From a virus: a stretch of 23,199 bases of DNA. Positions 14,176 to 23,199 of the stretch are shown here, piece after piece. Within the stretch, counting starts at the first letter, position 1. The number at the start of each line of letters is the position of its first letter. The notes under the pieces were generated by a model that saw only the letters and a program-made list of their open reading frames with translations, searched no databases and was not told where the DNA came from. Where the stretch lies: the IMG/VR virus record IMGVR_UViG_3300009000_000043, positions 1 to 23,199 of that record. One strand, 5' to 3'. The translations under genes were made by a program, and so were the position numbers.

Positions 14176-14756
14176 TGGCAACAGTTTTCGACGATCTATT
14201 GGCTAGAGGTGTTCGTGCTGGCGAAGTTCCTGCTAGAACACAGCAATCACGTGATTGGTTTCGTGATGCAGCCAAAAGAACTAGCGTAACTCCAAACAAA
14301 CTCGGAAAAGACACAAGCAGATTAGCCAATCGTGCTAGAATTGGTTCTATGTATATGTTCTTCTATGATCCAAAACATAAGAAAACATTACCCTATTACG
14401 ATAGATTCCCTCTTATTTTTAAGATTGCCAATGTTGATGGTGGATTTACAGGAATTAATCTCCATTATCTTCCGTACAAATTACGAGCAGAGTTAATGGA
14501 CGCATTATATGACTTGTCTAATAATAAGCGATATGACGAGTCTACAAAGTTAAAATTGTCTTATGATATTCTTAATTCAGCAAGCAAATATAAGATTTTT
14601 AAACCAACATTCAAAAGATATCTGAACGCCAATGTTCGTTCCAGATTTATCGAAGTTAATCCTGCCGAATGGGACATTGCTTTATTCTTACCAGTTGAAA
14701 GGTTTGAGAAAGCAACAGCTCGTAAAGTTTGGGCAGAGAGTAGGAAGATGATCTAA
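14175..14756 (+). CDS. conserved T4-like virion protein, possibly DNA end protector gp2
   Basis: This 193-residue protein contains RIGSMYMFFYDPKHKKTLPY (55-74), then DRFPLIF and INLHYLPYKLRAELMDAL (93-110). I recognise this block from marine T4-like phages, where it sits beside gp4. In T4 the neighbour of gene 4 is gene 2, whose product caps the DNA ends in the head, so gp2 is the best guess. It rests on position and partial memory of annotations, not on a motif with known function. T4 gp2 is longer (274 residues). The N terminus has many Arg and Lys, which would suit DNA contact. AGGA lies 11 bases before the ATG, and the stop overlaps the next gene (TAATG). Confidence 0.6.
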   Translation: MATVFDDLLARGVRAGEVPARTQQSRDWFRDAAKRTSVTPNKLGKDTSRLANRARIGSMYMFFYDPKHKKTLPYYDRFPLIFKIANVDGGFTGINLHYLPYKLRAELMDALYDLSNNKRYDESTKLKLSYDILNSASKYKIFKPTFKRYLNANVRSRFIEVNPAEWDIALFLPVERFEKATARKVWAESRKMI

Positions 14757-15550
14757 TGGCATTTAACATTAACGAATTCTCAGGCGAACTAGGTAAAGGT
14801 GGGGTTGCAAAGGCATCTCACTTTGAAGTTTTTATTACTGGACCATCCGACAAGAAAAAGAGTGATGCTGGCGGTGGCGGATTTATCAATAAATTAAAAG
14901 CCAAGGCAATATCATATGTTAAAGACGCTCTGTTTGGTGGAGATGGGGGAGGATCACGCTCTCTTACTGCTAGAATAGATGCGGCAGATATTCCTGGAAG
15001 AAACTTAATGACTGCTGATTATAAGCATAAAAATTATGGACCAATTATTAAACTTCCTTATGGTCAAGTCTATAGTGACGTCAATCTGTCAATTATTTGT
15101 AGCGAATCTCTCAGCGAAAAGAAGTTCTTTGAAGAATGGCAAAATCAAATTGTTGGGACAGGATATGACTATAAAGGAAATGGTCTAGAAAAGTTTAATC
15201 TTGGATATTATGACGATTACGTTGGAGTCGTTGAGATTCGTCAATATGGTATGTCTGGACAGTTGCAGGCAGTGCATAAACTAAATGGCGCATATCCTAT
15301 AAGTATTGCTCCTATCTCAATGTCATGGCAAAGTGAAGATATTGTTCGTTTAAATGTTACCATGTCATTCAGAAACTATAGAGCAGAGTTTCAAGAAGGT
15401 GGGGGAGCAGGTATTGGGTTTGGATTGTCATTTGGCAAAAATGGATTACAAGCTAGAATCACAAGTAAACTTGGAAATTTAACTATAAATAAGAACGGAG
15501 CGCAAGCGAACGTAAGAACACCATTTGGTATTCTTCGCAAGAATTTTTAA
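14756..15550 (+). CDS. 54: tail tube initiator gp54-like (gp19/gp54 tube family)
   Basis: A 264-residue protein of the contractile-tail tube fold. It has ADIPGRNLMTADYKHKNYGP (75-95), then LPYGQVYSDVNLSIICSE (99-116), FFEEWQNQI (123-131) and YPISIAPISMSWQSEDIVRLNVTM towards the end, the usual order of tube proteins such as gp19. It is longer than T4 gp19 (163) and has a Gly-rich insertion (residues 35-68) carrying a possible amphipathic segment. T4 gp54 (320) is the tube paralogue that nucleates tube growth on gp48, and the baseplate context favours gp54 over the major tube protein. AGGAAGA precedes the overlapping ATG. Fold assignment is firmer than the gp54 name. Confidence 0.7.
   Translation: MAFNINEFSGELGKGGVAKASHFEVFITGPSDKKKSDAGGGGFINKLKAKAISYVKDALFGGDGGGSRSLTARIDAADIPGRNLMTADYKHKNYGPIIKLPYGQVYSDVNLSIICSESLSEKKFFEEWQNQIVGTGYDYKGNGLEKFNLGYYDDYVGVVEIRQYGMSGQLQAVHKLNGAYPISIAPISMSWQSEDIVRLNVTMSFRNYRAEFQEGGGAGIGFGLSFGKNGLQARITSKLGNLTINKNGAQANVRTPFGILRKNF
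15484..15491 (+). promoter_or_regulatory. T4-type late promoter for gp26
   Basis: An exact TATAAATA inside the 3' end of the gp54-like gene. The predicted start near 15497 gives a leader of about 74 bases. GGAG lies nine bases before the gp26 ATG at 15571. It could drive gp26, its frameshift product, the EF-hand gene and the tape measure. Confidence 0.55.
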
Positions 15551-15570: not shown

Positions 15571-16281
15571 ATGGCTTTACCACAAATAGCGACGCCAGAA
15601 TATACATGCATTGTACCATCGACAGGAGAAGAAATTAAATTTAGACCTTTCCTGGTAAAAGAAGAAAAGATTCTTTTGATGGCACTTGAAAGTGATGAAT
15701 TGAAAGATACGATTCTTTCTACAAAACAGATTATTTCTAATTGCGTTTTGACTGAAGGGTTTGATATTGAGTCTTTGGCAACATTTGATTATGAGTTTCT
15801 TTTTCTACAACTTCGTGCAAGATCTGTAGGAGAAGTTATCGAATTGAAGATCAGACATAGTGATAGTAACAGCGAATGTAATCATTCAACTGACGTTACT
15901 ATTAATATTGATGATATTACTTTTAATGGAGAAATGCCAGAAAGAAATATTATGATTACTGATGAAGTCGGTATTAGAATGAAACTGGTTGGGATTGATG
16001 CCGCAGCTGATGTTGATTTCAGTAAAACCGATTCTATATTTAAATTCGTTGCTTCAAACGTTGAATATATTTTTGATAAAGATGAAGTTTATTCGGACTT
16101 CACTCAAAATGAAATTGAAGAATGGATTGAAAACTTGAATCAAAAACAACTTGAGACAATTATGAATTGGTTTCAAAAATTGCCCAAGTTGACACATACT
16201 GTGAAATGGACTTGTCCAGAATGTAAGAAAAAGGATAGTATGACCTTGGAGGGACTAGACGCTTTTTTTACATCGGGCTGA
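15571..16281 (+). CDS. 26: baseplate hub assembly protein gp26 (tail chaperone short form)
   Basis: A 236-residue protein (T4 gp26 has 208). The N terminus, MALPQIATPEYTCIVPSTGE with FRPFLVKEEKILLMALE (25-40), followed by ILSNCVLTEGFDIESLATFDYEFLFLQLRA-type sequence (52-83), is typical of the T4 base plate protein family. Cys103-x-His105 and Cys215-x-x-Cys218 could bind zinc; this is inference. The 0-frame stop is TGA at 16279. Immediately before it lies a seven-T run that can shift ribosomes into an open -1 frame, giving a 294-residue product. This short/long pair upstream of the tape measure mirrors lambda G/GT. It has its own late promoter at 15484-15491. Confidence 0.85.
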   Translation: MALPQIATPEYTCIVPSTGEEIKFRPFLVKEEKILLMALESDELKDTILSTKQIISNCVLTEGFDIESLATFDYEFLFLQLRARSVGEVIELKIRHSDSNSECNHSTDVTINIDDITFNGEMPERNIMITDEVGIRMKLVGIDAAADVDFSKTDSIFKFVASNVEYIFDKDEVYSDFTQNEIEEWIENLNQKQLETIMNWFQKLPKLTHTVKWTCPECKKKDSMTLEGLDAFFTSG

Positions 16282-16289
16282 GCCACGAT
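16263..16289 (+). promoter_or_regulatory. probable -1 programmed ribosomal frameshift site
   Basis: The heptamer T TTT TTT occupies 16263-16269 in exactly the X XXY YYZ phase relative to gp26 (codons TTT at 16264 and 16267). Two bases on, ATCGGGC (16272-16278) pairs with GCC-CGAT (16282-16284 and 16286-16289, one bulged A). The gp26 stop TGA forms the three-base loop. A -1 slip joins residue 233 of gp26 to 61 more residues ending at 16454. The two-base spacer is shorter than usual unless the lower stem opens. Confidence 0.75.
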
Positions 16290-16454
16290 TCACTAGCGAA
16301 CGTGTATCAGCTTAACTTTGCTTTAATGCAACATCATAATTATTCGTTATCTGAGTTAGAAAATATGATGCCTTGGGAAAGGCAAATTTATGTGACTTTG
16401 TTAAAAAATCATTTAGAAGAAGAAGCCGAAAGGGCAAAACAAAGGAACTACTAA
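16269..16454 (+). CDS. C-terminal extension of gp26 made by frameshift (gp51-position tail chaperone)
   Basis: This -1 frame encodes 61 residues: YIGLSHDSLANVYQLNFALM, SLSELENMMPWERQIYVTLL and an acidic-to-basic helix ending KQRNY. The pattern of LANVYQL, a short loop, then MPWERxIYxxLL and a charged helix is what I recall for small genes after gp26 in marine T4-like phages and for the T part of G/GT-type tail chaperones. The frame opens only at 16239 after a TAG and has no ATG before 16320. The first in-frame ATGs (about 16326 and later) lack a ribosome site and would cut into the conserved part. Expression by frameshift is therefore the simplest reading. It would chaperone the tape measure encoded downstream. 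Confidence 0.7.
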   Translation, partial: YIGLSHDSLANVYQLNFALMQHHNYSLSELENMMPWERQIYVTLLKNHLEEEAERAKQRNY

Positions 16455-16455
16455 G

Positions 16456-16812
16456 ATGGCTGAACAAAAAGTAATGCAAGCAGATTCCATTTATGCTTAT
16501 CTCGATACAGATGGTGATGGAATCATAACAGATGAGGAAATGTCAAGAGCGAAAGAGATCGCTGAATTTGAACATAAAAGAGCTATGCAACAGAATGAAG
16601 ATGCGAAAGAAGATCAAATCCGTAAGATGGCTTGGTTTGCCTTATTCGGAATGTTATTATACCCATTTGGGATTTTCCTAACCTCAGCCTTTGGCTTAGA
16701 CAAAGCTGCACAACTTATTAGCGATATCGCTCCGACTTATTTCGTAGCCATCGCTGGTTTGGTTGCTGCATTCTTTGGCGCAAGCGCATACAGCAAAGGC
16801 AAAAAAGAGTAA
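16456..16812 (+). CDS. EF-hand protein with two membrane segments, unknown
   Basis: A 118-residue protein. Residues 17-28, DTDGDGIITDEE, form a complete canonical EF-hand loop (D17, D19, D21, I24, E28). A charged helix follows, then two hydrophobic segments (about 59-78 and 93-112, the second AIAGLVAAFFGASAYS), and a basic tail KGKKE. AAGGA precedes the ATG, and the gene starts one base after the frameshift ORF stop. It lies directly before the tape measure, roughly where T4 has genes 27-28. I do not recognise a T4 counterpart. Calcium-responsive membrane insertion during DNA entry, or a holin-like role, are both possible. The position in a tail operon favours a virion or assembly role. All functional statements are inference. 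Confidence 0.75.
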   Translation: MAEQKVMQADSIYAYLDTDGDGIITDEEMSRAKEIAEFEHKRAMQQNEDAKEDQIRKMAWFALFGMLLYPFGIFLTSAFGLDKAAQLISDIAPTYFVAIAGLVAAFFGASAYSKGKKE

Positions 16813-21292: not shown

Positions 21293-21661
21293 TTAGTTTG
21301 CTAGAGGATTTTTAAGAGCCTCCTCGATTTGTATTCCGATTGATTTTCTAATATCTATAAGTTCTCTCTGAGTCTCAGTTTCTAACTCATAGAGGCGACG
21401 CATCGCATCTCTCGTATCATTTAATAAAAGATTTACATCAGCGTTTACACGATTAACAGTTTCCTTTTGAACTGCTAGTTCCTGTTCGATATGTGATAGG
21501 TCTGGTGCTTCGTATGCTTCAATACGTTCTTTCATATCCATATAGTCGCCCCAAAATTCTGCGGCTCCCCATACGATACCAGCTGCAGTTGATAGTGCCA
21601 TAAGCACTGCTGCCATTTTACCGCCAGTAAATTTAATGCCACCAACTTCTACTTCTGCCAT
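21293..21661 (-). CDS. membrane-anchored coiled-coil protein, unknown
   Basis: A 122-residue protein. After a short hydrophilic start, residues 16-37 (MAAVLMALSTAAGIVWGAAEFW) form one membrane segment. Residues 45-112 are a charged heptad-like coiled coil (HIEQELAVQKETVNRVNADV and onwards). The single anchor plus long coil resembles a spanin-like or tail-attached membrane protein, but no lipobox or paired spanin gene is visible. It starts in a TGATG overlap with the stop of the Cys-repeat gene, so the two are translationally coupled and may act together. The hydrolase lies two genes downstream, which makes a lysis role possible; this is inference. Confidence 0.7.
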   Translation of the reverse strand: MAEVEVGGIKFTGGKMAAVLMALSTAAGIVWGAAEFWGDYMDMKERIEAYEAPDLSHIEQELAVQKETVNRVNADVNLLLNDTRDAMRRLYELETETQRELIDIRKSIGIQIEEALKNPLAN

Positions 21662-23199
21662 CAGTATTGACTCCTTATTAATTGTTGCATTAGACCATAA
21701 TTTTGTCTGCGCATTCTATAATGGTCTGCGTTGTTACCTATAATTTTTTGATCACCATATATTTGTGACAGAACATATATTTCATCTCTGTCTATCATTG
21801 CTGTATCATACTGTGTCAAATCGACAGCATTATTGATGCTATCAAGCATTTGTGTCTGACCCTTATACGTTGCAGACTTCTCTAAGTTATTCTTTCTAAC
21901 CTGCTCAGCCAATCGTTCAGCAAGTGATTGTTGTTTCTCTGTTGGTTCATTACTCTGCTCAGAACCTTGCTGCGGTATAATAACAACTACAACTGGACCA
22001 ACACCAGCGGCTGCATTGTTATCATTCTGTGCTTGTGACTCGGTTGCAGATGATTCGCCAGATGAGATTGATTGTGACACTAACCCACCAACCAGCCGAT
22101 CAGAAATCCCACGCCCAATACTGACAGCGTCAATTGCAGGTCGTTCTCTGCTATTCTTTTGCTCAGCTGGCTCACTACTGTTTTCAGCTTGTTCATTTTG
22201 TTTCTCCTGTGGTTCTTCATTCTTAGTTTCTTCAATAGGCTGCTCAATAATTTCTTCTTCTACCACAGTTTCTTCGAACACCTCATTAACTGTTTCCTGC
22301 TCAACGACAACAGGCTCTTCAAACGTTTCTTGTGGTTGCGACTCAATAACAGGTACTTGAACCTCTATTATATATCCGTCACAAATAGGAGAGTATTGAG
22401 GATTCATTTCGCATTGTTGTCCAAAGAACGCTTCAGCATATCCTGGACAACCATTGTCATAGAGAGCATCTAACGAGCATTGTTGATTGTAATATGCCTC
22501 TTCATATCCTGGACACCCAGTATCGTATAAAGCATCCAACGAACATTGTTGATCGTAATACGCTTCGGCATACCCTGGACAGCCATTATCATACAACGCA
22601 TTTAATGAACATTGCTGGTCATAATATGCCTCTGCATATCCAGGGCATCCTTGATCGTATAAAGCATCATACCCACATTGCTGTTGATAGTATGCTTCTT
22701 CATATCCAGGACACCCTGTATCGTAAAGGGAATCAAAGCCACACTGTTGCGTATAGTATGCCTCCGCATAACCAGTACACCCTTGGTCATATAACGGATC
22801 ATACGAACATTGTTGATTGTAATATGCCTCTGCATATCCTTCACAAGTCGGATCTGATAATGGATTGGCGGCACAGGCATCAACCTCATATACAATTTTT
22901 AGTTCTAATGGCCAAAATTCTGGACCATACCATCCTGCCCAAAACCCAGCATCATCGCCTGTTGCGGTAAGTTTAATATTACTAAGGTCAGATAAAGCAT
23001 ATGGGTCAGCGAATATCTCTGTTCCAGCAAAGTGTGTCCAATCTGTTATGGGATATCCATAATCATAATGATAATTCTCAACAACATTACCAGAAGAATC
23101 ATAAAGGTTAATGTAAATGTCTAATGGGTCTTGAGGAGACCCGAATTGAGTGTTGGCGTTATAGTTCTTTACATGCCAGTGATATGAAAATCCAAGAAC
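21661..23199 (-). CDS. Cys-rich CPGY-repeat protein, 5' end outside window
   Basis: The frame is open from the right edge to TGA at 21661, 512 visible residues without a start, so the N terminus lies beyond the window. Residues 1-113 form an aromatic, beta-looking domain (FSYHWHVKNY, DPLDIYINLYDSSGNV, GDDAGFWAGWYGPEFWPLE), lectin-like in flavour. Residues 114-267 are seven tandem 22-residue repeats, consensus LYDxGCPGYAEAYYxQQCxxDA, two Cys each. A degenerate eighth starts QYSPICDGY. Then comes a Glu/Pro/Val-rich stretch (about 281-350), a Ser/Gln/Asn-rich linker with PVVVVIIP, and a charged C-terminal domain. I recall similar NPLYDxxCPGY repeats in marine phages, with unknown role. Surface adhesion with disulfide- or metal-stabilised repeats is a guess. 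Confidence 0.85.
   Translation of the reverse strand, partial: VLGFSYHWHVKNYNANTQFGSPQDPLDIYINLYDSSGNVVENYHYDYGYPITDWTHFAGTEIFADPYALSDLSNIKLTATGDDAGFWAGWYGPEFWPLELKIVYEVDACAANPLSDPTCEGYAEAYYNQQCSYDPLYDQGCTGYAEAYYTQQCGFDSLYDTGCPGYEEAYYQQQCGYDALYDQGCPGYAEAYYDQQCSLNALYDNGCPGYAEAYYDQQCSLDALYDTGCPGYEEAYYNQQCSLDALYDNGCPGYAEAFFGQQCEMNPQYSPICDGYIIEVQVPVIESQPQETFEEPVVVEQETVNEVFEETVVEEEIIEQPIEETKNEEPQEKQNEQAENSSEPAEQKNSRERPAIDAVSIGRGISDRLVGGLVSQSISSGESSATESQAQNDNNAAAGVGPVVVVIIPQQGSEQSNEPTEKQQSLAERLAEQVRKNNLEKSATYKGQTQMLDSINNAVDLTQYDTAMIDRDEIYVLSQIYGDQKIIGNNADHYRMRRQNYGLMQQLIRSQY
22399..22860 (-). repeat. seven tandem 66-bp repeats encoding Cys-rich units
   Basis: Seven in-frame units of exactly 66 bp: 22795-22860, 22729-22794, 22663-22728, 22597-22662, 22531-22596, 22465-22530 and 22399-22464. 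Each encodes 22 residues with Cys at positions 6 and 18. The CPGY and QQC codons are the most constant. The outermost copies (first and seventh) are the most diverged, as expected for growth by unequal exchange in the centre. Confidence 0.92.

Follow-up and report, generated by a model that had tools for sequence, protein, structure and literature searches.

A probable -1 frameshift site that would make gp26 and gp51 a single tail assembly chaperone gene in a T4-like phage and its relatives

The 23,199-base IMG/VR record analysed here (the window), from a marine T4-like phage, carries a gene of the gp26 family followed, in the -1 frame, by a gp51-like sequence, which raises the question of how the second part is translated. 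For T4, PMC3004832 names both proteins, gp26 and gp51, as chaperones of hub assembly, and gives gp51 as missing from the particle. Tail assembly chaperones made by -1 frameshifting have been described for lambda (gpG and gpGT) and for other phages (Xu, Hendrix and Duda 2004, as cited in a passage of PMC9024508). Judging from the sequence analysis, it is very probable that gp26 and gp51 here constitute one tail assembly chaperone gene, with a 236-residue short form and a minority 294-residue form produced by a -1 frameshift, which would be aided by an upstream GGAGGG element and a stem-loop at 16275-16313. The original prediction of a -1 site giving a G/GT-like chaperone pair thus gains support, from conservation and from the -1 peptide. 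Vladimirov, Gautam and Davidson (Virology 566:9-15, 2022) reportedly identified the tail assembly chaperones of T4-like phages, gp26/gp51. As this work is cited for a short gene and a long fusion gene in some T4-like phages (a passage in PMC10885494) and for slippery poly-T runs within the short chaperone genes of T4-like phages (a passage in PMC12846349), our main claim is probably already known in outline.

Table 1. Features of the chaperone locus and its neighbours in the window
Feature	Coordinates	Strand	Evidence or remarks
Tail tube-like protein, upstream neighbour	14756-15550	+	phrog_45, E 2e-30; PF23849
gp26-like short tail assembly chaperone (TAC-N), 236 aa	15571-16281	+	PF12322 T4_baseplate, E 5e-56; phrog_150, E 2e-61; AlphaFold2 pLDDT 91
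GGAGGG, Shine-Dalgarno-like candidate stimulator	16248-16253	+	9-10 nt upstream of slip site; anti-SD duplex -9.8 kcal/mol; GAG bias in relatives
T TTT TTT slippery heptamer, candidate -1 frameshift site	16263-16269	+	In phase; T TTT TTT/C/G in 179/182 relatives; preceding codon T-ending and first Phe TTT in 108/108
gp51-like extension in -1 frame, 61 aa, C-terminal part of putative 294-aa TAC-NC	16269-16454	+	phrog_634 'baseplate hub assembly catalyst', E 9e-27; conserved from slip site on in 34-sequence alignment; predicted helical
Small 7-bp hairpin with TGA in loop, alternative fold	16272-16289	+	-6.2 kcal/mol, one bulged A; not preferred in longer context
Downstream stem-loop, 7-bp outer stem plus inner stem	16275-16313	+	Starts 5 nt past slip site; -18.1 kcal/mol, z -2.98; same register best in 33 loci
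TGA stop of 0-frame product	16279-16281	+	Read from gp26 frame
Probable tape measure protein, 613 aa	16818-18659	+	From position, length, hydrophobic segments and same-position isolate annotation; no family match

The short product matches both profiles of the T4 gp26 family, PF12322 and phrog_150, and the -1 extension matches phrog_634, the profile of the gp51 family, as well as the end of phrog_150, a 282-position profile that includes fused members (Table 1). The window therefore has both a PF12322 domain and a phrog_634 tail, the combination that marks T4-like gp26/gp51 (T4, Aes012 and PspYZU05 were compared). Sequence searches returned no credible relatives among solved structures; the best PDB fold match for the AlphaFold2 model of the short form was the HK97 tail assembly chaperone (2ob9), a weak similarity with Foldseek probability of 0.82-0.85, a non-significant E-value of 0.5-0.75 and a TM-score of 0.54 on the target. 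No second copy of gp26 or gp51 was found in the record, a result that carries little weight for a 23-kb fragment.

The genes follow the order tail tube (by family match), chaperone, a 118-residue protein and a 613-residue protein. The last of these found no match in family or phage-record searches; it is probably the tape measure protein, since the gene at the same position is annotated as tape measure or similar in Cr30 and phiM12, and its own relatives occupy the same place in the relatives' loci. The intervening 118-residue protein (16456-16812) has two hydrophobic segments and a weakly matching EF-hand-like N-terminus (E 0.0045), and a conserved counterpart immediately follows the gp51 part in many relatives and in Methylophilales phage Melnitz.

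Read from the ATG at 15571, the gp26 frame reaches its end as ...GGA CTA GAC GCT TTT TTT ACA TCG GGC TGA, in which the T7 run is divided as T TTT TTT, in the exact X XXY YYZ phase of a slippery heptamer and four codons before the stop, in agreement with the original prediction. After a slip of one base back, the reading would become TAC ATC GGG CTG AGC CAC GAT ... up to a stop at 16452-16454, which adds 61 residues (YIGLSHDSLANVYQLNF...KQRNY). The predicted products accordingly measure 236 residues without the shift and 233+61 = 294 residues with it; these lengths, the open -1 frame of 61 residues and the junction LDAFFYIGLSH had all been predicted, and translation finds them correct. The -1 frame opens at 16239 and its first ATG, GTG or TTG is the GTG at 16302, which lies inside the conserved part, as had been claimed, so a separate gp51 start in the window was rejected. 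Since T7 runs are strongly under-represented in the window (4 observed vs about 26 expected from shuffles), the one at the slip site stands out, and among the 17 Phe-Phe pairs in the window's main ORFs only this pair is encoded by an in-phase T TTT TTT/C; the decisive argument against chance is the conservation described next.

The arrangement was compared in 183 sequences from IMG/VR and from annotated isolates, both parts being readable in 182. Every one of these 182 has its gp51 part in the -1 frame, and 179 have an in-phase T TTT TTC, T TTT TTT or T TTT TTG before it. The heptamer is found in phages of SAR11, cyanobacteria, Vibrio, Aeromonas, Caulobacter, rhizobia and Stenotrophomonas. Among the sources are S-PM2, P-SSM2, S-CAM4, DSL-LC03, Pelagibacter phage Mosig, Methylophilales phage Melnitz, Caulobacter Cr30, Sinorhizobium phiM9 and phiM12, Rhizobium RHph_N34, Agrobacterium OLIVR5, Vibrio phi-ST2 and D482, Aeromonas PX29, Citrobacter Ci1 and Stenotrophomonas Marzo. 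The canonical heptamer is missing from Dickeya PP35 and Klebsiella Magnus, both of the Ackermannviridae, and from Vibrio K474. In these exceptions (L089, L098 and L100, the Ackermannviridae-like relatives) the gp51 homologue is still in the -1 frame, and Magnus (L100) has neither the heptamer nor a nearby start codon. In an alignment of 34 sequences, conservation of the -1 extension sets in at the slip site, ahead of the first possible start, with 60% mean column identity; for S-PM2 the predicted junction peptide reads ...LQSFFR, then ISMFYNNLENYYR. The proposal that gp51 is a frameshift extension of gp26 is thereby strengthened, since the heptamer and the -1 frame are kept, and since relatives lacking a start codon still share the -1 peptide from the slip site on.

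The best surviving alternative is that gp51 is a separate small protein, translated by termination and re-initiation (translational coupling) at a start that overlaps the gp26 stop or lies just after it. Public records do annotate gp51 independently, as a CDS that adjoins gp26 or overlaps it, and TAATG or TGATG overlaps are present in Vibrio, Stenotrophomonas, Caulobacter and rhizobial phages. For a closer comparison we used 108 representatives of less than 85% identity, picked among heptamer-bearing loci, a condition that removes only the three exceptions, and looked for possible starts in the open -1 frame, both upstream and in the first 24 nt past the slip site. An in-frame ATG was found in 54 of them and only GTG or TTG in 16, whereas 38, the window among them, have no start, so that frameshifting is the only evident route in these 38. 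The position of the supposed start alternates between Met and Leu among relatives (ISMxH, IALxH, IGLxH) and the Met there therefore looks like an ordinary residue. Besides, the conservation of the -1 peptide begins upstream of any possible start, and coupling leaves unexplained the T at synonymous positions described below. We thus regard re-initiation as an improbable explanation of gp51; because of the nearby in-frame ATG, a free gp51 may also be made in the 54 phages concerned, and coupled re-initiation may add to expression in those with TAATG or TGATG overlaps, but it cannot serve in the window phage.

According to a second alternative, the T run is a by-product of a conserved Phe-Phe pair in a phage of high AT content, and the -1 ORF has either decayed or arisen by chance. 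The Phe-Phe pair is indeed invariant and TTT is the preferred Phe codon, yet the first Phe is TTT in 108/108 representatives vs 67% usage elsewhere (log10P about -24). The codon before the pair ends in T in 108/108, whatever residue it encodes (S, D, N, A or G), with a log10P of about -28 when the expectation is set by the codon use of the gene concerned. In three rhizobial-type phages Leu, encoded as TTG, stands in place of the second Phe, and the heptamer stays slippery. The T-ending preceding codon, the invariant TTT and the slippery Leu TTG together argue for selection on the nucleotides and not only on Phe-Phe. A chance or decayed frame is further at odds with the strong match of the -1 ORF to phrog_634 and with its column identity among relatives, so that this explanation is hardly tenable. 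A sequencing or assembly indel that split one in-frame gene can be set aside with similar assurance, for although homopolymer runs are error-prone, 179 loci, drawn from isolate genomes and independent metagenomes, share the frame break at this very position, and many relatives have T TTT TTC rather than a T7 run.

Frameshifting at the heptamer, the reading we prefer, is accompanied by two candidate stimulators. The original prediction had missed the GGAGGG upstream of the slip site. Its Glu codon is GAG in 53 of 75 relatives vs 25% elsewhere in the same genes, and the mean anti-SD duplex energy in relatives is -6.8, a stronger pairing than the -4.8 of synonymous randomisation; by these sequence measures, codon choice is biased toward keeping a GGAGGG-like element. 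Downstream, the hairpin originally predicted, with the TGA stop in its loop, does exist but is outcompeted by the larger stem-loop, which is the preferred structure when 16270-16330 is folded (Table 1). The same helix register is the best one in 33 loci; with it 71% of cells are paired, vs 23-41% when it is slid, and covariation is moderate. The stimulatory hairpin is therefore probably this larger stem. The TGA-loop hairpin of the original prediction was rejected as the conserved stimulator, since other relatives use other, longer stems. Relatives of the S-PM2 type have a 15-bp stem (88% paired, one compensatory pair), and those of the P-SSM2 type a 12-bp stem (92% paired) without covariation, which is uninformative as the pairs hardly vary. 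When all representatives are taken together, their downstream 60 nt give more stable folds than shuffled sequences do (mean z -1.25, vs -0.47 for a control stretch). The stem-loops do not form one universally conserved structure, and their covariation is modest. In the E. coli dnaX gene the frameshift signal consists of a Shine-Dalgarno-like element about 10 nt upstream, a slippery heptamer and a stem-loop 5-6 nt downstream. The window has the same three-part layout; on the other hand, the dnaX heptamer is A AAA AAG, the gene is cellular and the shift there makes the shorter product.

What has been observed is the sequence, its phase and conservation, the codon bias and the register of the structure; the occurrence and rate of slippage and the chaperone role are inferred. 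Most ribosomes would stop at the TGA and release the short form. In a minority of cases, anti-SD pairing to GGAGGG together with the stem-loop would hold the ribosome, which would slip back by one base with two Phe-tRNAs on U UUU UUU, where TTT TTT re-pairs as TTT TTT, and would read on to 16454 to give the long form with its predicted helical gp51 tail. By analogy with lambda G/GT, both forms may coat the tape measure protein, and tube subunits may be recruited through the tail that the long form carries. The locus resembles that of lambda gpG/gpGT in having a short form and a -1 long form, a position between the tail tube-like and probable tape measure genes and a slip near the end of the first ORF. 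It differs in that no sequence-family link was found between the two, in the 118-residue gene that lies between chaperone and probable tape measure, and in its U UUU UUY heptamer with an upstream SD-like element and a stem-loop. Phage Adele (Vandenendeviridae/Andersonviridae), as presented in a passage of PMC12846349, likewise shifts to the -1 frame at a poly-T motif where the short chaperone gene ends, and its downstream ORF is misannotated as a gene of its own, but the motif is GTTTTT and the phage belongs to another lineage.

T4 itself was originally said to have separate genes 26 and 51, which is true but incomplete. In T4 gp51 (249 aa) a single frame carries matches to both PF12322 (4e-52) and phrog_634 (1e-23), the protein being an in-frame fusion of a gp26-like domain and the gp51 tail, and gp26 (208 aa), which matches PF12322 alone, is its short paralogue over that domain. 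The two genes lie head to head (L090:4303-5729), and Aes012 and PspYZU05 show the same pattern. The T4 group thus makes its short and long forms from two genes, with no slippage needed, whereas the window has homologous domains in one gene and would rely on slippage. Whether the slip was lost in T4 or never present is not settled by the tree, which is unrooted and has long branches. The gp26 gene of PspYZU05 still ends in GAA TTT TTT AAA, which may be what is left of a former slip site. We somewhat favour the broader view that, T4 group apart, 'gp51' is in most T4-like phages a frameshift tail of gp26 rather than a stand-alone gene. Its signal would have three parts as in dnaX (an SD-like GGAGG at -10, U UUU UUY and a clade-specific stem-loop) and would work in cyanobacterial and SAR11 hosts as well as in Vibrio and rhizobia, the T4 group having instead a short paralogue and an in-frame fusion. 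Slippage and gene duplication with fusion would then offer a natural comparison of two solutions for a two-form chaperone.

None of the annotated isolate regions viewed contains a joined gp26-gp51 CDS; the records give gp51 as a separate gene or miss it. On the present reading, a joined CDS would be needed in hundreds of records of cyanophages and of Vibrio and rhizobial phages. In the cyanophage records S-CAM4 (L081) and DSL-LC03 (L082) no gene is annotated over the gp51 part, the ACG-2014d records list none under that part either, and other records start gp51 at differing codons. At the far end of the window (21661-23199) we also noted a cysteine-rich protein with many tandem repeats of the type YDxGCPGYAEAYYDQQCSLDAL, which runs off the end of the contig.
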